This document shows positions 2,255 through 55,290 of a DNA stretch of 62,017 nucleotides, in pieces. The DNA comes from Elusimicrobia bacterium GWA2_56_46 (lineage in GTDB: Bacteria > Elusimicrobiota > Elusimicrobia > Elusimicrobiales > UBA9959): NCBI GenBank assembly GCA_001799575.1, contig MGTT01000003.1, forward strand, positions 1-62,017, in the 5' to 3' direction. The notes under the pieces were generated by a model, which worked only from the letters and a program-made list of their open reading frames with translations, did no database searches and was not told where the DNA came from. The position numbers and the translations under genes are program-made. How positions within the stretch are numbered: position 1 is the stretch's first letter; each line of letters opens with the position of its first letter.

Positions 2255-4633
2255 ATGGACGTCCCGACGAACGCTGAAAAAAACTACCCCAGGACCCTGC
2301 CGGCCATCGCCATAAGGGACGTGGTGCTTTTCCCCCACATGGCGCTGCCGCTCTCCGTGGACAGGCGCAAATCCGTGGCGGCCATCGAAACCGCGCTCGG
2401 CGCCGGCAAATTCATGCTGGCGCTGGCGCAGAAAAAACCGGCCGTCAACGACCCCGCGCCGGAGGATCTCTACGCCTACGGCGTCCTGAGCGTGGTGGCG
2501 CAGTCCCTGAAAATGCCGGACGGCACCATGCGGGTGTTCCTGGAAGGCATAAAACGCGCCAGGGTTCTGAAACTGGAACTGGACAAGGAAAAAGCCTGCC
2601 TCATGGCCGAAGTGGAGTACCCGGAGGAGACGGTCGAAAAGACGCCGGAGATCATAGCTCTCATGCGCAGCGCCGTCGAGGTTTTCGAAGAATTCGTAAG
2701 GCTCGGCACGCGCGGCACCCTGGACTCGGTGGCCATGCTGGCGCAGCTGGACGACCCCTCCAAGCTTGCCGACACCATCGCCGCCAACGCCATTTTCAAT
2801 ATAACCGACCGCCAGAACGTCCTGGAGACGGCCGATGTCGGGGAACGCCTTGACAAGATCGTGAAACTGCTGGTCAAGGAGATAGAGATCCTGGACATAG
2901 AGCAGAAACTGCACACCCGGGTAAAAGGCCAGATAGAAAAATCCCAGAAAGAATATTATCTTAACGAGCAGATGAAGGCCATCCAGAAAGAACTTCATCA
3001 GAAAGACGATTTCTCCAAGGAGCTGGACGAGCTGAAAAAAAAGATCAAAGCCGCCAGGATGTCCAAGGAAGCTGAGGCTGCCGCCGAAAAAGAACTGGCC
3101 CGCCTGTCCAAGATGACGCCGTTCTCTCCGGAAACCACGGTGGTCCGCACCTACCTGGACTGGCTTATCAGCCTGCCCTGGGCGGTGGAGACCAAAGACG
3201 CCATAGACCTGGAACTGGCCCGCAAACTTCTGGAAGAGGATCATTACGGCCTTAAGAAGCCCAAGGAACGCGTTATAGAGTATCTCGCGGTCTGCAAACT
3301 GACCCAGAAGCTTAAAGGTCCTATCCTCTGTTTTGTCGGCCCCCCCGGAGTCGGCAAAACCTCCATTGCCCGTTCCATTGCCCGCGCCATGGGCCGTAAT
3401 TTTGTCAGGATGTCGCTCGGCGGAGTCAGGGACGAGTCCGAGATCCGCGGCCACAGGCGCACTTATGTCGCGTCCATGCCCGGCCGCATCATCCAGAGCA
3501 TAAAGAAAGCCAAAAGCCGCAACCCCGTCTTCCTTATGGACGAGATAGACAAGATGGGTTCGGATTGGCGCGGCGATCCCGCGGCCGCCCTGCTGGAAGT
3601 CCTGGATCCGGAGCAGAACACGGAATTTATGGATCATTTCCTTGATCTGCCTTTCGACATCTCCAAGGTTATGTTCGTGGCGACGGCCAATACGCTGTGG
3701 GGCATCCCGGTCAGCCTGAGGGACAGGCTGGAAATAATAGAGTTCAACGGATACACGCATAACGAGAAAATAGAGATCGCCAGAAAATTCCTCATCCCCA
3801 AGCAGCTCGGGGAACACGGCCTCGTGGAGAATTCGCTCAGGCTGGACGACGCAGCCATAGACGCTGTCATACGCGGCTATACGCGCGAGGCGGGAGTCAG
3901 GAACCTGGACAGGGAGTTCGCCACGCTTTGCCGGCGGGCCGCCAGCAAGGTCGTTGAAAAAGGGCTGAAAGAGGTAAAGGTGACCGTTGACAACCTGCAC
4001 GATTATCTTGGCATTCCCAAGTTCACGCGGGAGGAGAATTCCGCCAACGGCGTCGGTCTGGCCACGGGCCTGGCCTGGACGGAAAACGGCGGAGAGGTGC
4101 TGGCGGTGGAAGTGGTGGCCGTACCCGGCAAAGGCAATCTGCTGCTGACCGGAAAACTGGGCGATGTGATGAAAGAATCCGCGCAGGCGGCTTTTTCCTA
4201 TATCAAGTCCAGGGAACTGGCCTCCGTGTCCTATATCCAGTCGCATAATTTTCACATCCATATCCCGGAAGGGGCTATCCCCAAGGACGGCCCTTCGGCG
4301 GGCATAACGCTGGCCTCCGCGCTGGCCAGTCTGCTCACGGGCCGCGCGGTCAAAAAAGGCCTCTCCATGACGGGCGAGGTCACTCTGACCGGCCGTGTGC
4401 TCGGCATCGGAGGCCTGAAAGAAAAGATCATAGCCTCGTTCAGGGAAGATATTTCCACCGTGCTGTTCCCCAGGGTCAACCTGAAAGAGCTGGAGGAGAT
4501 CCCGGTGGAAATAAAAGACAAGATGCGGCTGCTGCCCGTGGCCTCCATGGATGAGGTGCTGGAACTCGCGCTTGAGAATAAAGCGCAAGGCGGCAAAGGC
4601 AGAAAGTGGCAAAAGCAGAAAGTGGCAAAGTAA
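2255..4633 (+). CDS. lon: ATP-dependent protease Lon
   Basis: Lon is a cytoplasmic AAA+ serine protease that removes misfolded and regulatory proteins. The 792-residue chain contains the N-terminal substrate-binding domain (about 15-220), a coiled coil, the AAA+ module with Walker A GPPGVGKTS at 362-370 and Walker B FLMDE at 426-430. The C-terminal protease domain has catalytic Ser681 in KDGPSAGI and the lysine of the GGLKEK segment near 724. It starts one base after the clpP stop. The last 15-17 residues are basic and low in complexity. They are encoded by short tandem units of a dispersed repeat (see 4582-4733), so the tail is probably a repeat-derived addition rather than part of the fold. 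Confidence 0.96.
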   Translation: MDVPTNAEKNYPRTLPAIAIRDVVLFPHMALPLSVDRRKSVAAIETALGAGKFMLALAQKKPAVNDPAPEDLYAYGVLSVVAQSLKMPDGTMRVFLEGIKRARVLKLELDKEKACLMAEVEYPEETVEKTPEIIALMRSAVEVFEEFVRLGTRGTLDSVAMLAQLDDPSKLADTIAANAIFNITDRQNVLETADVGERLDKIVKLLVKEIEILDIEQKLHTRVKGQIEKSQKEYYLNEQMKAIQKELHQKDDFSKELDELKKKIKAARMSKEAEAAAEKELARLSKMTPFSPETTVVRTYLDWLISLPWAVETKDAIDLELARKLLEEDHYGLKKPKERVIEYLAVCKLTQKLKGPILCFVGPPGVGKTSIARSIARAMGRNFVRMSLGGVRDESEIRGHRRTYVASMPGRIIQSIKKAKSRNPVFLMDEIDKMGSDWRGDPAAALLEVLDPEQNTEFMDHFLDLPFDISKVMFVATANTLWGIPVSLRDRLEIIEFNGYTHNEKIEIARKFLIPKQLGEHGLVENSLRLDDAAIDAVIRGYTREAGVRNLDREFATLCRRAASKVVEKGLKEVKVTVDNLHDYLGIPKFTREENSANGVGLATGLAWTENGGEVLAVEVVAVPGKGNLLLTGKLGDVMKESAQAAFSYIKSRELASVSYIQSHNFHIHIPEGAIPKDGPSAGITLASALASLLTGRAVKKGLSMTGEVTLTGRVLGIGGLKEKIIASFREDISTVLFPRVNLKELEEIPVEIKDKMRLLPVASMDEVLELALENKAQGGKGRKWQKQKVAK

Positions 4634-4733
4634 GAAACCGGCAGGGGCGCAAAGGCGCAAAGTTTCAGAGGGATAAATTTTTTAGAAGTCTCCCGCCTCT
4701 GGCTCTTTGTGCCTTTCTGTCTTTCCGCTTTCA
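4582..4733. repeat. Dispersed inverted repeat, GCGCAAAG family, copy 1
   Basis: The left part contains a duplicated AGAAAGTGGCAAA unit and GGCGCAAAGGCGCAAAG. The right part carries the inverted counterpart CTTTGTGCCTTTCTGTCTTTCC. A second copy of the same family lies at 12896-13010. The left end overlaps the last codons and stop of lon, and the right end precedes the DUF885 gene. The 168 bp between lon and the next credible start are otherwise empty. Confidence 0.65.
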
Positions 4734-4800
4734 TGATTTTGCGGTTCCCCCCGTTTGCGCCTATGAAGCGACCCTTACCACGCAGGAGATGGAGGGCGCC

Positions 4801-6477
4801 ATGGAAAACACCAAGCTCAACGAGATTTTCGGGCAATACCTCGCCACTCTGCAGGTATACGATCCGGAACGCGCCACGCGCCTGGGCGTCCACGGAAGCG
4901 ACGCCGCCCTGACCCAGCGCACCCAGGAGCGCGTCAACAGCCAGTTGGAGGCTTTAAGGCTCCTGCGCGCCAGGCTCCGGGAGATAAAGAAAGCTTCCAT
5001 GTATCCGGCCCTCCAGGTGGATTACGCCCTGCTGGATCATATCCTGGAAGTGGATCTCTATGAACTGGAGAATCTGGATCTCCTTAAAAAGCGGCCGCAG
5101 TACTACCTGGAGCCTCTTTTGTCCGTCTACCAGCTGCTCTCAAAAGATTTCGGCGGTTATAACGCCCGCGCCGCCAACGCCCTTGCGCGGCTGAAACAGT
5201 TTCCGCGGATCCTGGAGCAGGCGGAACGCAATATTTCCCATCCTCCGGGGATCTGGGCGGAGGCCGCCCTGAAGCAGACCGAGGCCGCGCTCAACGGCAT
5301 TTCCGATTTTATACCGCTGTTCCGGAGTTACACGCGCTACGATCCGGTTCTGAAAGCCCAGGTAGACGAAACGATGGACGGGGTCAAAACCGCTCTGGTC
5401 CGATACCGGGATTTTCTCAAAACCGGCGTTATCCCCGGCGCCGACGGCGACTTCCGCGCCGGCGACTATACCTGCGGTTTTTATCTTGAGCGCTGGCACG
5501 GCCTGGATCTCGATCCGGGGGCGGCGCTGGCGTACGCGAAAAAAAGTTATAAGACCGCGCTGAAAGATCTGGAAAGGGAAGCCCTCAATATCGACCCCCT
5601 GCTGGCGAAGGAAAAGGGCTGGAAAGGGGTTCTGGACAAGCTTCCCAGGGAGCATCCGTCCCTGGGCGACATCCTTAAAATTTTTCAGGACGAGGCTGAC
5701 CGCGCGTACCAGCATTTTGACGAATATAAGGTGGTGGAATTTCCCAAACAGCGGCTTCTCATGAAGAAAATGCCTGATTTCATGTCCGCCGCGCTGCCCT
5801 ACGCGTATTACGCGGAACCATTCCCCCTGGACGACGTCAGGGTCTCGGACTTCTACCTCTCGCTTCCTTCCGAAAAACTCCCGTCGGCCGCGCGCGAGAA
5901 GCTTCTGGCGTCCGGCTTCAATTACGCGCAGATCGAACTGCTTACGGCGTTCGATGTTATGCCCGGCATGCATTTGCGCAGTTACGCTTCCGGGGCCAAC
6001 CGTTCCCGGATAAGAAAGATCTCCGTCCAGCCCATGGTCGTCAACGGGTGGGCCTGTTACGCGGAGCTTCTGGCCGAAGAGATGGGGTATTACTCCTCTT
6101 ACTGGTCCCGGTTCCTCAGGATGTACGCCCGGACCCTGCGCGCCGGCCGCGCCAGCGTGGATGCGGCTCTGCACATGAAAAAAATGACCTATGACGAAGC
6201 GGTCGCTTTTTTTCAGGAAAACTTTTATATGTCCCAGGCGCAGGCCAGGGCCGAAGTGCTGAGGATCTCTACCGCTCCCACGGAGAGCCTGAGCTATATA
6301 ATGGGCATGGACCGGATCCTGGAGATGCGCAAATATTATCAGCGCACGGAGCAAAAATATTTCGACCTGAGAAAGTTCCACGCCTCGTTCCTCCGGCAGG
6401 GCGCGATCCCGCTGGGAGATGTCGAAGCCGAGCTCAGGCGGCTCAGGAAAGAATCGCTTGAAACGGGGCAAAAATGA
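4801..6477 (+). CDS. DUF885 family protein with degenerate metallopeptidase motif
   Basis: The 558-residue chain matches the DUF885 layout. The N-terminal segment reads ATRLGVHG, the C-terminal half has a GWACYAELLAEE block, and a late RAGRASVDAALH block precedes the ISTAPTESLSY region. Active members carry HExxPGH and a second metal ligand in EGW. Here the first motif reads FDVMPGMH at residues 384-391 and EGW has become NGW, so the metal site appears lost. I therefore predict a non-catalytic relative. The ATG at 4801 follows GGAGG at 4791-4795. A GTG at 4606 would add 65 residues from repeat DNA and is less likely. The gene overlaps the next by four bases, starting an exporter operon. Confidence 0.75.
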   Translation: MENTKLNEIFGQYLATLQVYDPERATRLGVHGSDAALTQRTQERVNSQLEALRLLRARLREIKKASMYPALQVDYALLDHILEVDLYELENLDLLKKRPQYYLEPLLSVYQLLSKDFGGYNARAANALARLKQFPRILEQAERNISHPPGIWAEAALKQTEAALNGISDFIPLFRSYTRYDPVLKAQVDETMDGVKTALVRYRDFLKTGVIPGADGDFRAGDYTCGFYLERWHGLDLDPGAALAYAKKSYKTALKDLEREALNIDPLLAKEKGWKGVLDKLPREHPSLGDILKIFQDEADRAYQHFDEYKVVEFPKQRLLMKKMPDFMSAALPYAYYAEPFPLDDVRVSDFYLSLPSEKLPSAAREKLLASGFNYAQIELLTAFDVMPGMHLRSYASGANRSRIRKISVQPMVVNGWACYAELLAEEMGYYSSYWSRFLRMYARTLRAGRASVDAALHMKKMTYDEAVAFFQENFYMSQAQARAEVLRISTAPTESLSYIMGMDRILEMRKYYQRTEQKYFDLRKFHASFLRQGAIPLGDVEAELRRLRKESLETGQK

Positions 6478-8685: not shown

Positions 8686-9725
8686 ATATCCTGAATATCG
8701 TGAATTCGTCCGACTGGGATATTGCGGCCTACCAGGCCCTGCATATGGCTGTTCAATTCAAAAAAACCGGGCACAGCGCCGTATTGATGTGTCCCAGGGA
8801 CTCCCGTCTTTACGCGGAAGCGCAGAAATACAATCTTCCCGTGCGGCCGCCGACTTTCCTGTCCAAACTGGGTTTTTTCCGCGGGGCGCGGTATGAAATA
8901 GTCCATTTCTATGATCCGGCTTCCGCGAATGCGCTGCTTCTGAAAAAGCTCTCGGCCGTTTCCAGGGTTTTTATCAGCCAGATCCGGCTTGGCGGCGCAA
9001 AGACGCTGCTCCGCCTTAAGGGGTTCGAACCTTATGTTACGCGTTTTATCGCCTCCTGTCCATCCGTGCAGGAGGATCTCTGCGCCGCGGGCATAGCTCC
9101 CGCCGCTACTTTCGTGGTTCCTCCGGCCATAAATATCGGCCGCTGGGAAAGCGCGATGCTGATAAGGCCCGCCATGTTCCAGAAGCGGCCGTTCAAGGTC
9201 GGCACTATCAGCATGGACAGAACTTTGAAGGACCAGGAATTCTTTCTCACAACGGCGAAAGAGGTGCTGAAAGTCCTGCCGGACACTCATTTTATGGTGG
9301 TAGGTTTCAGGGCCGAGCGCATAAGGAAAATTGCCCGCGGTCTTGGGATAAGCCATAAAGTGGATGTGCTCTGGGAGCGCAACGACATTCCGGAAGTGAT
9401 GGCGATGCTGCATCTTTTCGTGAAAACCATAGACCGCCCCGGACTCTCGATGTCGCTTATCGAAGCCCAGGCCTCGGGCGTGGCCTGCGTTATACCGCGC
9501 GTACGGGGGCTCAGCGATTTTACGATCCACGAGCGCAACGGCCTGTTGGTGGAACCCGGCAACGCCGCGTCCTTCGCGGAAGCGATAATTCACCTAATAA
9601 AAAATCAGACCGTTTGCCGCACCATCTCCAGGATGGCCTATGACCAGGTGAACTTCAATATGTCGGTGCCGGTGGTGAACAATCTGCTGACGCGTCTGTA
9701 TGAGGACGCGCTGGAGACAAAATAA
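8682..9725 (+). CDS. Glycosyltransferase, GT4/GT1 fold
   Basis: The 347-residue enzyme has a GT-B fold. The C-terminal domain contains the GLSMSLIEAQASGVACVI segment, the family EX7E-like donor-binding region, followed by RNGLLVEPGN. The N-terminal half is the acceptor domain, with HMAVQFKKTGHSAVLMCPRDS. It would transfer a sugar from an activated donor to a cell-surface or lipid acceptor. It is last in the operon that begins at 4801, overlapping the TPR-like gene by four bases. An ABC-2 exporter plus a glycosyltransferase suggests a small surface glycoconjugate or glycolipid export module. Donor and acceptor are unknown. Confidence 0.85.
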   Translation: MNILNIVNSSDWDIAAYQALHMAVQFKKTGHSAVLMCPRDSRLYAEAQKYNLPVRPPTFLSKLGFFRGARYEIVHFYDPASANALLLKKLSAVSRVFISQIRLGGAKTLLRLKGFEPYVTRFIASCPSVQEDLCAAGIAPAATFVVPPAINIGRWESAMLIRPAMFQKRPFKVGTISMDRTLKDQEFFLTTAKEVLKVLPDTHFMVVGFRAERIRKIARGLGISHKVDVLWERNDIPEVMAMLHLFVKTIDRPGLSMSLIEAQASGVACVIPRVRGLSDFTIHERNGLLVEPGNAASFAEAIIHLIKNQTVCRTISRMAYDQVNFNMSVPVVNNLLTRLYEDALETK

Positions 9726-9756
9726 TTGAAGATTGCGGATTGAAGATTCAAGATTC
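9726..9756. repeat. Short direct repeats TTGAAGATT
   Basis: TTGAAGATT occurs twice, 15 bp apart, followed by a related TTCAAGATT. It lies directly after the glycosyltransferase stop. It looks like one more dispersed intergenic repeat, but no second copy is in the window. Confidence 0.3.
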
Positions 9757-12654: not shown

Positions 12655-12900
12655 ATGAAACTTAAGAACATACTCATGCTCGGCCTCCCCGCTATCGCGT
12701 TATGGGTCGTTGCGATATTCGTGCTGGGGATTTTTCTGATCAAATGGTTCTGGATGTGGACCATCCCCGATCTCTTCCCGGGCGCGGTGGCTTCGGGGTT
12801 GGTGGCCGCCCGGATCTCCTGGTGGACCGCGCTTAAGCTCGCCGGGCTGGTGGCTTTACTGGCGGCGATAACCAATATTTCAAAAACTGATAAAGTCTGA
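12655..12900 (+). CDS. Small two-helix membrane protein
   Basis: The 81-residue protein has two long hydrophobic segments, about 8-34 and 50-75, separated by a short loop with WTIPDLFPGAVASG. I do not recognise a named family. It lies 57 bp before the binding lipoprotein of a sugar ABC importer and on the same strand. It could be an accessory of the importer or simply adjacent. Its transcript appears leaderless (TAGAAT box seven bases upstream, no ribosome site). Confidence 0.6.
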   Translation: MKLKNILMLGLPAIALWVVAIFVLGIFLIKWFWMWTIPDLFPGAVASGLVAARISWWTALKLAGLVALLAAITNISKTDKV

Positions 12901-13010
12901 AGGCGCAAAGTGGGAAAGCACCGAAGTTCAGAAAGCGGAAAGGGGCAAAGGGGTAGATTGCGTGTCTATGCGTCTTTGTCTCTTTGCGCTTTCTTCTTCT
13001 CCTCATGCTC
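12896..13010. repeat. Dispersed inverted repeat, GCGCAAAG family, copy 2
   Basis: The left arm AAGGCGCAAAG ... GGGGCAAAGGGG and the right arm GTCTTTGTCTCTTTGCGCTTTC are inverted relatives and match the copy at 4582-4733. The right arm lies inside the reading frame of the following lipoprotein and encodes the hydrophobic core of its signal peptide. Confidence 0.6.
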
Positions 13011-14175
13011 AAGGCCCAAATCCCCCCTGGACGCTTTAACTATCACGGTCTGGGAGCAGGAGGACGCGCAGGTCGCTCCCTACATAGATTCGGTTTTCTC
13101 CGCTTTTGAAAAACTTCCGGAAAACAAGGGGCTGCGCATAGTGCGGACCCATTACCAGACCGAGGATCTGCGCCAGCAGTTCCAGGCGGCTTCGCTCGCC
13201 GGCGTGGCGCCGGATCTGATCATGTGCCCCTCCGATACCGCCGGACTTTTTGCCGTCGCCGGCTTTATCAGCCCCGTAGACGGCCTTATCGACGCCGGCA
13301 AGTATAATCGCGCCGTGCTGCAGGCCATTACGCTGGACGGGCATATCTGGGGCGTGCCGGTTTCCAACGGGAACCATCTCCTTCTTTTCTTCAACAGAAA
13401 GCATATTGAAACCGCGCCCGAAAATACCGACGAGCTTTTTAAATTCTGCGCCGGCGCCGGGGCCCGCAAGCTGGACTTCTGCATGGCCTTTGATCTGGGC
13501 GAGCCGTTCTGGCTTATGCCCTGGCTGGCGGCTTTCGGCGGCTGGCCCATAGACAACAAGACCCCCGAGCTGGATACTCCGGCCATGCGCGCGGCCATCG
13601 ACTTCTACCTGGATCTTAAATTCAACAAGAGATATGTCCCGCCGGAATGCGATTACAACTGCATGGATTCCCTGTTCAAGGAGGGCAAGACCGCATTCAT
13701 TATAAACGGGGACTGGGCCATTTCAGGCTATCAGCGGCATTTCGGGAAAGATCTGGGCCTGGGACTCATCCCGAAACTCTCCTCCACCGGGCGCTGGCCG
13801 GCGCCCATGGTCAGCGGCAAATATTTCATGCTCAGCTCCGGGGTAAAGCCGGAGAAGCTCCCTCTTATCAGGCGCCTGCTGGTATTCTACACCAGCCGCG
13901 CAAATCAGATAAGGCAGTTCAAAGAACTTCAGCGCCTGCCGGCCCTCGCGGAGGCTTCCCGGGCGCCGGAGATCTCCGGCGACAGCGTCTCAAGAATCTC
14001 TATGGAGCAGATCTCGAAGGGGCGGCCCATGTCCATGGCGACCGAAATGCGCGCGGTCTGGGATTCGGCCAGGAATTATCTGGGACTGGCCACCAGCCGT
14101 AAATTAAACGTCCCGGACGCGACGCGGAAAATGCAGGAAAACGCGGTGCAGAAAATAGCGGAGATGAACAGATAA
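12958..14175 (+). CDS. ABC sugar-binding lipoprotein (family 1 solute-binding protein)
   Basis: This is the periplasmic, lipid-anchored receptor of a carbohydrate importer. Typical family 1 features are visible: TITVWEQEDAQ at the mature start, a GVAPDLIMCPSD segment, and a PWLAAFGGWPID hinge-side motif. I prefer the TTG at 12958, which gives the signal core VYASLSLCAFFF and lipobox FSSC; AAAGGGG lies just upstream. A GTG at 12910 in the same frame would add 16 charged residues. The signal core is encoded by the arm of a dispersed repeat, which is unusual. Two permeases and an ATPase follow on the same strand, plus an amylase, so maltodextrin or similar oligosaccharides are likely ligands. 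Confidence 0.85.
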   Translation: MRVYASLSLCAFFFSSCSRPKSPLDALTITVWEQEDAQVAPYIDSVFSAFEKLPENKGLRIVRTHYQTEDLRQQFQAASLAGVAPDLIMCPSDTAGLFAVAGFISPVDGLIDAGKYNRAVLQAITLDGHIWGVPVSNGNHLLLFFNRKHIETAPENTDELFKFCAGAGARKLDFCMAFDLGEPFWLMPWLAAFGGWPIDNKTPELDTPAMRAAIDFYLDLKFNKRYVPPECDYNCMDSLFKEGKTAFIINGDWAISGYQRHFGKDLGLGLIPKLSSTGRWPAPMVSGKYFMLSSGVKPEKLPLIRRLLVFYTSRANQIRQFKELQRLPALAEASRAPEISGDSVSRISMEQISKGRPMSMATEMRAVWDSARNYLGLATSRKLNVPDATRKMQENAVQKIAEMNR

Positions 14176-19944: not shown

Positions 19945-20889
19945 ATGAAAACCAAAGATATAAACGCGGCGAAAGCCGATGTGGTGAAGCTGTCAGTGGC
20001 GTCCAATGCCTGTCTGGTCGCGTTTAAACTCGCGGTCGGCCTGTTCATCGGTTCGGTTTCCGTTCTCTCCGAAGCCATCCATTCAGGAGTGGACCTGGCG
20101 GCGGCGCTCATCGCCTATTTCGCGGTGCGTTCTTCCGCCCAGCCGGCGGACAAAGATCACCCCTACGGCCACGGGAAATTTGAAAATATCTCCGGTTTCG
20201 TAGAAGCCATCCTGATCTTCCTGGCGGCGGCCTGGATCGTTTATGAAGCGGTCGGGAAACTGATCCACCCGGAGCCCATAGAACTCATCGGCTGGGGCAT
20301 CCTGGTCATGGCGCTCTCCTCTTTCGTGAACATGGCCGTTTCCCGGATGCTTTTTAAGGTGGGCAACGCTACCGATTCCATAGCCATAAAGGCGGATGCC
20401 TGGCATCTGCGCACCGACGTCTATACCTCGATGGGCGTTATGACCGGACTTGGCCTTATATGGCTGATAGAGCTTTTGTGGACGGGCCACCATGTGCATT
20501 GGATAGATCCGCTTGCCGCCATTGTGGTGGCGCTCATGATAATCAAAGCGGCCTACGACCTAACCGCGCAGTCCCTGGGGGACCTGCTGGACGAGTCACT
20601 CCCGGCGGACGATAACCGTAAAATAGCGGAACTTATAAAAAAACAGGTCGAGATCATAAGTTTTAAAAACCTGCGCACACGGAAAGCCGGAGCCGTGAAA
20701 TTTATAGAATTCGATATCCTGGTGCCCTCGGGGATGTCGGTGGAAAACGCCCATTCGCTTACCGACTACATAATCGCCGATATAGAAAGCGTCCTGGCCC
20801 GTTCCACGGTCGTAATCCACATAGAGCCATGCGATAAAAAATGCCCACCCGAATGCGTCACAAACTGCGCCCCAGGGAGCAGGGTGTAG
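19945..20889 (+). CDS. Cation diffusion facilitator metal exporter with Cys-rich tail
   Basis: The 314-residue inner-membrane antiporter exports divalent metals such as zinc, manganese, iron or cobalt. The metal site is visible as His46/Asp50 in TM2 (HSGVD) and His154/Asp158 in TM5 (HLRTD). A His-rich HPYGHGKFE loop lies between. A His at the first site position differs from the classical Asp of YiiP, so metal preference may differ. After the cytoplasmic dimer domain comes a short tail with four cysteines in CDKKCPPECVTNC, a possible metal-sensing ligand set. The final SRV codons and stop lie at the edge of a TAGGG-type repeat. There is no ribosome site. Confidence 0.9.
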   Translation: MKTKDINAAKADVVKLSVASNACLVAFKLAVGLFIGSVSVLSEAIHSGVDLAAALIAYFAVRSSAQPADKDHPYGHGKFENISGFVEAILIFLAAAWIVYEAVGKLIHPEPIELIGWGILVMALSSFVNMAVSRMLFKVGNATDSIAIKADAWHLRTDVYTSMGVMTGLGLIWLIELLWTGHHVHWIDPLAAIVVALMIIKAAYDLTAQSLGDLLDESLPADDNRKIAELIKKQVEIISFKNLRTRKAGAVKFIEFDILVPSGMSVENAHSLTDYIIADIESVLARSTVVIHIEPCDKKCPPECVTNCAPGSRV

Positions 20890-20967
20890 GGTTTAGGGTA
20901 GAGGGTAGAAAACACCGCGCCAACCCAACTCCCCCCCTAAACCCTCTACCCTAAACCCTCTACCCTA
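20887..20967. repeat. TAGGG-type inverted repeat, copy at convergent gene ends
   Basis: TAGGGTTTAGGGTAGAGGG at the left and CCCTAAACCCTCTACCCT repeated at the right are inverted copies. The left arm contains the stop of the CDF gene; the right arm encodes the last residues (RVEGLG) and stop of the MFS gene. Related sequence is at 41436-41467 and 31563-31580. It can form a long hairpin between two convergent genes. Confidence 0.75.
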
Positions 20968-41435: not shown

Positions 41436-41467
41436 CTACCCTAAACCCTGACCCCTATACCCTTCCC
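41436..41467. repeat. TAGGG-type repeat at the lyase/CoA-transferase junction
   Basis: On the minus strand GGGAAGGGTATAGGGGTCAGGGTTTAGGGTAG encodes the final GKGIGVRV residues and TAG stop of the HMG-CoA-lyase-like gene. It also leads into the ribosome site of the next gene. It is the same family as 20887-20967 and 31563-31580. Confidence 0.65.
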
Positions 41468-55190: not shown

Positions 55191-55290
55191 CAGTAACCAG
55201 TATCCGGCAACCAGTGACCAGTAACCGATAGATTTAAGAAACTCATATTATTAACACCGGCTACCGAATACCGGTTACTGGTTACCGGCC
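55191..55290. repeat. Inverted repeat of CCAGTAACC units
   Basis: Left CAGTAACCAGTATCCGGCAACCAGTGACCAGTAACCG and right CCGGCTACCGAATACCGGTTACTGGTTACCGG are imperfect inverted copies. The right arm encodes the last residues (GNQ) and TAA stop of the TIGR03546-type gene. It fills the gap between the paired membrane-protein genes. Confidence 0.75.

Follow-up and report, generated by a model that had tools for sequence, protein, structure and literature searches.

A period-8 palindromic repeat as the probable source of a lipoprotein signal peptide in an Elusimicrobia genome

In Yersinia, the signal peptide of YPO1552 comes from a YPAL/RU-2 palindromic MITE (Delihas 2007, PMC2759123, PMC2229807). 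That system consists of one locus and one 168 bp MITE with its own family sequence, whereas the repeats described here are of several unrelated 7- and 8-mer types, occur at many genes and seem to have replaced the signal of one gene repeatedly. Heptameric inverted repeats have been described yet little studied (PMC4692102). The inverted heptameric SSRs GGGAATC in Xanthomonas and GGGGA(C/T)T in Nostoc (Rehm 2015, PMC4692102) are, like our elements, period-7 arrays that lie preferably between co-oriented genes, with about 70 paired inverted copies per Xanthomonas genome. Unlike ours, they were studied as G-quadruplex sequences and are mostly non-coding, and a signal-peptide role was not described. 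The TAACTGA heptamers of Beggiatoaceae (MacGregor 2015, PMC4679880) also form arrays directly upstream of start codons; however, these are direct rather than palindromic repeats, and the hypothesis put forward for them is translation regulation. According to the available portion of a review (PMC2229807), Rickettsia palindromic elements (RPE; Ogata 2000) measure 105-146 bp and belong to one sequence family; like the elements here they are palindromic and in frame within protein genes, and unlike them they are mentioned there without a signal-peptide role.

The repeat at the solute-binding protein gene

We analyzed a 62,017-nt stretch of DNA, hereafter the window, in which a putative solute-binding protein (SBP) gene for a lipoprotein occupies positions 12910-14175 of the forward strand, as do all features given below. 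Its mature part matches Pfam SBP_bac_8 (E 1.9e-24), and the SBP_bac_8 and SBP_bac_1 profile scores of 87.3 and 53.9 bits exceed the gathering score. On its 3' side lie two BPD_transp_1 permeases, which give it ABC-permease neighbors, a MalK-like ATPase and an alpha-amylase-family protein. On its 5' side, a small ORF of 81 codons (12655-12900) ends in TGA at 12898-12900, and this TGA doubles as the final stop in the SBP frame ahead of that ORF. The end of this small ORF (..ITNISK) precedes the SBP gene in relatives too.

Between the two, at about 12901-12995, lies an imperfect period-8 palindrome whose translation gives the n- and h-regions of the predicted SBP_bac_8 lipoprotein signal peptide. 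Its purine arm (12901-12953; GGCGCAAAGTGGGAAAG...AGAAAGCGGAAAGGGGCAAAGGGG) is of the GGCGCAAA type and scores 22 against tandem GGCGCAAA, compared to a shuffled-window maximum of 13. The pyrimidine arm, of the CTTTGCGC type, is GTCTTTGTCTCTTTGCGCTTTC at 12972-12993. It encodes LSLCAF in the frame of the SBP ORF, which reads YASLSLCAFFFSSC followed by SRPKSPLDALT across the arm. The original prediction had recognized this stretch as the hydrophobic core just before the FSSC of a sugar-binding protein, and our analysis confirms it. The same prediction held that an inversion of the repeat had created the stretch; instead, the pyrimidine and purine arms are the two halves of a single palindrome.

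The element consists of tandem 7-8 nt units in two inverted arms, as do Rehm-type heptameric or octameric inverted SSRs. It does not belong to a fixed-sequence family with defined ends in the manner of MITE, RPE or REP elements, since copies vary in length, unit and type. A search of its own genome gave no second copy matching it beyond short stretches. Because BLASTN against this genome returned short partial matches only, we relied on detection based on period. The bare 8-mer GCGCAAAG shows no significant excess in the window (9 vs 4.8 expected); in contrast, the tandem of this unit is matched more often than chance would give. By a tile score that measures the match to tandem GGCGCAAA, the window's top two purine-arm sites are the elements at the SBP and DUF885 genes (scores 26 and 21; whole-window maxima over 10 shuffles, 11-13).

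Only three ATG/GTG/TTG codons, GTG 12910, TTG 12958 and TTG 12976, lie between the stop at 12898 and the conserved mature region, and all three are inside the element. The ORF from GTG 12910 begins with VGKHRSSESGKGQRGRLRVYASLSLCAFFFSSC followed by SRPK. This start is preceded by the Shine-Dalgarno (SD)-like GAAGG (12899-12903), which overlaps the beginning of the purine arm. A second such sequence at the end of the arm, AAAGGGG (12947-12953), stands four nucleotides before TTG 12958, whose product is MRVYASLSLCAFFFSSC. With either start the n-region is basic, the core hydrophobic and the lipobox acceptable; GTG 12910 and TTG 12958 are both candidates for the actual start, with TTG 12976 as a third. 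The two arms can also pair as a hairpin (12930-12994; RNA fold z = -3.66, with 0/200 shuffles as stable) that contains TTG 12958, pairs its SD-like sequence and could hinder initiation there.

The lipobox F-S-S-C spans 12997-13008, and its Cys (codon 13006-13008) aligns with the lipobox Cys of the orthologs, which carry a lipoprotein-type Cys at the same position. In the TTG form this residue is Cys 17 and in the GTG form Cys 33, so that both show the basic n-region, h-region and lipobox Cys at about 15-35 of a predicted SPase II signal. The lipobox is intact and, checked by eye, fits the PROSITE PS51257 pattern. From these features we infer that the SBP protein is exported and lipidated.

Might the real SBP start lie downstream, leaving the repeat untranslated? 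Misannotation of this kind is a generic risk and has likely occurred at many other elements, where an ATG follows immediately on the 3' side. At the SBP gene it is very improbable. After the element there is no ATG, GTG or TTG until GTG 13141, well within the conserved domain, and the orthologs align from the lipobox onward. The downstream start, raised with the original prediction as an outcome that would speak against it, was rejected on these grounds.

Replacement of the signal among orthologs

Matches to the SBP protein were found in 34 of the 61 genomes searched, nearly all of them from the same family, and identity between orthologs starts at about the lipobox. Four relatives, G002 (same genus), G013, G021 and G026, have an ordinary signal before the same Cys (e.g., VKRMFFADALALLPVMLFLCSC). 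Over the initial 150 nt encoding the mature protein, the genome under study (G000) is 75-80% identical to these four. Over the 66 nt before the Cys its identity to them is 35-36%, compared to 48-83% among the four themselves. The protein tree places G000 within their clade (support 99/98). These comparisons support the conclusion that an ordinary signal peptide, as read from the sequences, was replaced by repeat sequence.

The sister clade, G005 plus G016 (100/99), also has repeat-made signals at this gene: RSSFPLCLCAFVPLCLCFAAC, of the 8-mer type, in G005 and KFPPLFAIRYSLFALLLLLSAC, built of the TTCGCTA 7-mer, in G016. Because the repeat-made signals of G000, G005 and G016 are mutually unlike, they are most simply explained by three separate replacements. 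For the mature protein, dN/dS is 0.08-0.13, indicating that the gene is under purifying selection. Some relaxation is possible, since the G000 branch is the longest in its clade of the protein tree (0.15 vs 0.03-0.06).

At the same junction, the spacers of G013, G021, G026 and G016 contain additional repeats with other letters, lying outside the stretch that codes for the signal. This spacer upstream of the SBP ortholog carries differing repeat types in several close relatives (L014, L015, L016, L018), as a hot spot would.

We consider it quite probable, on the basis of these sequence comparisons, that the period-8 palindrome replaced the ancestral start and n- and h-regions and now supplies the SBP lipoprotein signal. 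An element of a genome-wide tandem-palindromic class would have come between the small upstream ORF and the SBP gene, with insertion, conversion or in-situ growth as candidate routes, and taken the place of the ancestral start codon, n-region and h-region. The purine arm can provide a Shine-Dalgarno-like sequence and basic residues, and the pyrimidine arm would provide the hydrophobic core, while the last lipobox residues and the Cys are probably left from the host gene.

A class of period-7 and period-8 palindromes

We surveyed 1.1 Mb of stretches from five related genomes (G000, G005, G013, G016, G021; L102-L161). Tandem arrays of period 7 or 8 number 31, 24, 23, 37 and 112 in the five samples, densities being biased for G016 and part of G005, where stretches were picked around 8-mer hits; the control periods 4, 5, 10, 11, 13 and 17 gave almost none (0-3 each). 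Many types of repeat unit occur side by side. The SBP element, with its degenerate tandem order, falls below the automatic threshold and was added to the element list by hand.

Wherever a partner could be detected, it lay to the right of purine-rich arms (71/71) and to the left of pyrimidine-rich ones (59/59). The purine-arm-first order is thus strict in these five genomes for all 130 arms of clear composition. With other repeat types in other phyla both orders occur, so we claim no universal rule. Single exact 8-mers in 295 genomes gave about equal, chance-level counts of the R..Y and Y..R orders. The exact palindrome GCGCAAAGGCGCAAAG-N-CTTTGCGCCTTTG has, among the matches listed, hits in Sorangium, Acidobacteriota, Planctomycetota, Verrucomicrobia and Bacteroidetes, as well as in Chloroploca/Oscillochloris and several proteobacteria.

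Repeats of the GGCGCAAA type are patchy yet genuine across the family; they are strongly expanded in single genomes, with 232 hits in G016 and 84 in G004, compared to 0-2 for a reversed-pattern control. The window holds further period-7 elements at gene boundaries (20873-20966, 41438-41463, 55191-55288 and 9725-9756), of the types AGGGTAG/TACCCTC, ACCCTAA, CAGTAACC/GGTTACTG and ATTGAAG.

A second copy of the period-8 element lies at 4586-4733 (hairpin z = -2.57), where its purine arm and the 3' end of lon (stop 4631-4633) overlap. As originally predicted for the region near 4.7 kb, the pyrimidine arm (4701-4733) encodes LALCAFLSF in the frame of a DUF885 protein gene (4606-6477; Pfam DUF885 E 3.3e-74), for which it would form a putative signal peptide. 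The orthologs have ordinary signal peptides, and GTG 4606, inside lon, is the sole ATG/GTG/TTG start upstream of the mature region. The c-region of this putative signal includes R, H and D, and judged on sequence features the case is weaker than that of the SBP gene.

On its other side, the purine arm (4586-4633) specifies the basic tail with which Lon ends (..GGKGRKWQKQKVAK). In G003, of the same genus, Lon has a similar tail, RKKQKVAK, so part of the purine arm may be ancestral sequence.

These elements might have a role of their own, as a translation-control hairpin, a terminator or a G-rich structure, with signal coding as a by-product. Stable hairpins are predicted at both the SBP and DUF885 elements, and structural or regulatory functions have been proposed for heptamer repeats (Rehm 2015, MacGregor 2015). 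The elements also lie mainly between co-oriented genes (136 tandem, 9 convergent and 10 divergent, vs 410/51/69 for general gaps of at least 60 nt). However, repeat sequence and type at the SBP junction vary between relatives, indicating that no specific sequence is conserved, and we regard this explanation as unlikely.

Repeats as probable raw material for secretion signals

Because neither 7 nor 8 is divisible by three, a tandem of units of such length encodes the same cyclic peptide in every frame. Tandem CTTTGCGC reads as LCAFAPLR in all frames and its complement as AQRRKGAK; tandem TTCGCTA gives FAIRYSL and tandem CCTTTAT gives PLSFILY. Over all arms and frames, mean KD is +0.65 for pyrimidine arms and -1.15 for purine arms, compared to -0.41 for random genomic 36-mers, and purine arms carry a net charge of +1.6 per 10 residues. 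The 8-mer type is the most open, in 78% of frames for pyrimidine arms and 52% for purine arms; 7-mer purine arms are often limited by stops, with 23% of frames open. The purine-pyrimidine order yields a basic and then a hydrophobic stretch, the layout of a signal peptide, and an element would do so in whatever frame or strand. Shuffled pyrimidine arms still reach a KD of +0.45, so hydrophobicity comes mostly from composition. The original prediction was right that the repeat gives a Leu/Cys/Ala/Phe-rich stretch; its tie to one particular 8-mer was too narrow, as pyrimidine-rich sequence is hydrophobic in any frame.

Among 58 non-redundant in-frame fusions in the sampled stretches, a home-made and crude signal-peptide predictor gave 10 with a signal beginning within or ahead of the element. 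When the downstream gene was replaced by random genes, the number was 3.6 ± 1.2, and 0/1000 such swaps reached 10. This partner-swap test supersedes a first enrichment test (19/68 vs 71/626, p = 4e-4) that was partly circular. The ortholog comparison, and like cases with other repeats and other genes, support the earlier suggestion that repeat stretches can serve as signals.

Predicted signals made of or containing elements belong to NamZ (G000), BatD, PD40/Peptidase_MA_2, PorV-like, PorP/SprF, fn3/CHU_C, DUF3108 and DUF885 proteins; the NamZ, BatD, PorP/PorV-like, PD40 and DUF885 cases are envelope proteins. Other phyla also offer in-frame predicted signals (L165, L173, L184 and L189, with L182 less clear), for example MGSHISRKGAKAQRKASMPFFAPLRLCVILLLLFTQVTAQ followed by QRAP in L173.

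The BatD signal peptide of G005 is composed of two repeat types, the TTCGCTA 7-mer and then the CTTTGTGC 8-mer, and the G016 BatD ortholog has an 8-mer-type part in common with it (L141:8802-8954, L152:5999-6158).

Is the element selected as a signal cassette at all? Elements may simply arrive at random between genes, where secreted genes tolerate them because their signals are sequence-permissive and other genes do not. The majority of elements are indeed intergenic or out of frame and form no signal, the hydrophobicity of pyrimidine arms follows their composition, and elements encode C-terminal tails too, as at the end of lon. We lean modestly toward such neutral arrival, which competes with any claim that a cassette function was selected. 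By itself it does not explain at least three repeat-made signals in one orthologous gene, although an upstream hot spot could. In the reading we favor for the SBP gene, the replacement would be a matter of exaptation: such elements may persist since a signal peptide can be built from whatever sequence has this physical character. The stronger proposal, that period 7-8 purine-pyrimidine palindromes are portable, frame-independent secretion-signal cassettes whose spread time and again gives rise to new signal peptides across bacterial phyla in general and so causes signal turnover on conserved proteins, is one we put forward tentatively and with some doubt.

In the literature on repeat-derived signal peptides, or on repeats in the presumed phylum, we found no precedent beyond Yersinia YPO1552. 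As far as our searches reach, three points are new: the link between heptamer-type repeats and signals, an explanation that is frame-independent, and recurrent replacement within a single gene. For annotators there is a caution: N-termini of the form KAQRRKGAK...LCAFAPLR are repeat DNA, coding in some cases only.

Given their rapid evolution, signal peptides rarely reveal where they came from. In the present case the raw material of a signal can be recognized because the repeat keeps its period. Judged from their sequences, such repeats seem to supply material for new secretion signals again and again. The origin of new export signals thereby becomes testable, as to the kinds of repeat recruited, the frequency of recruitment and the chance that a gene gains a working signal in one step.
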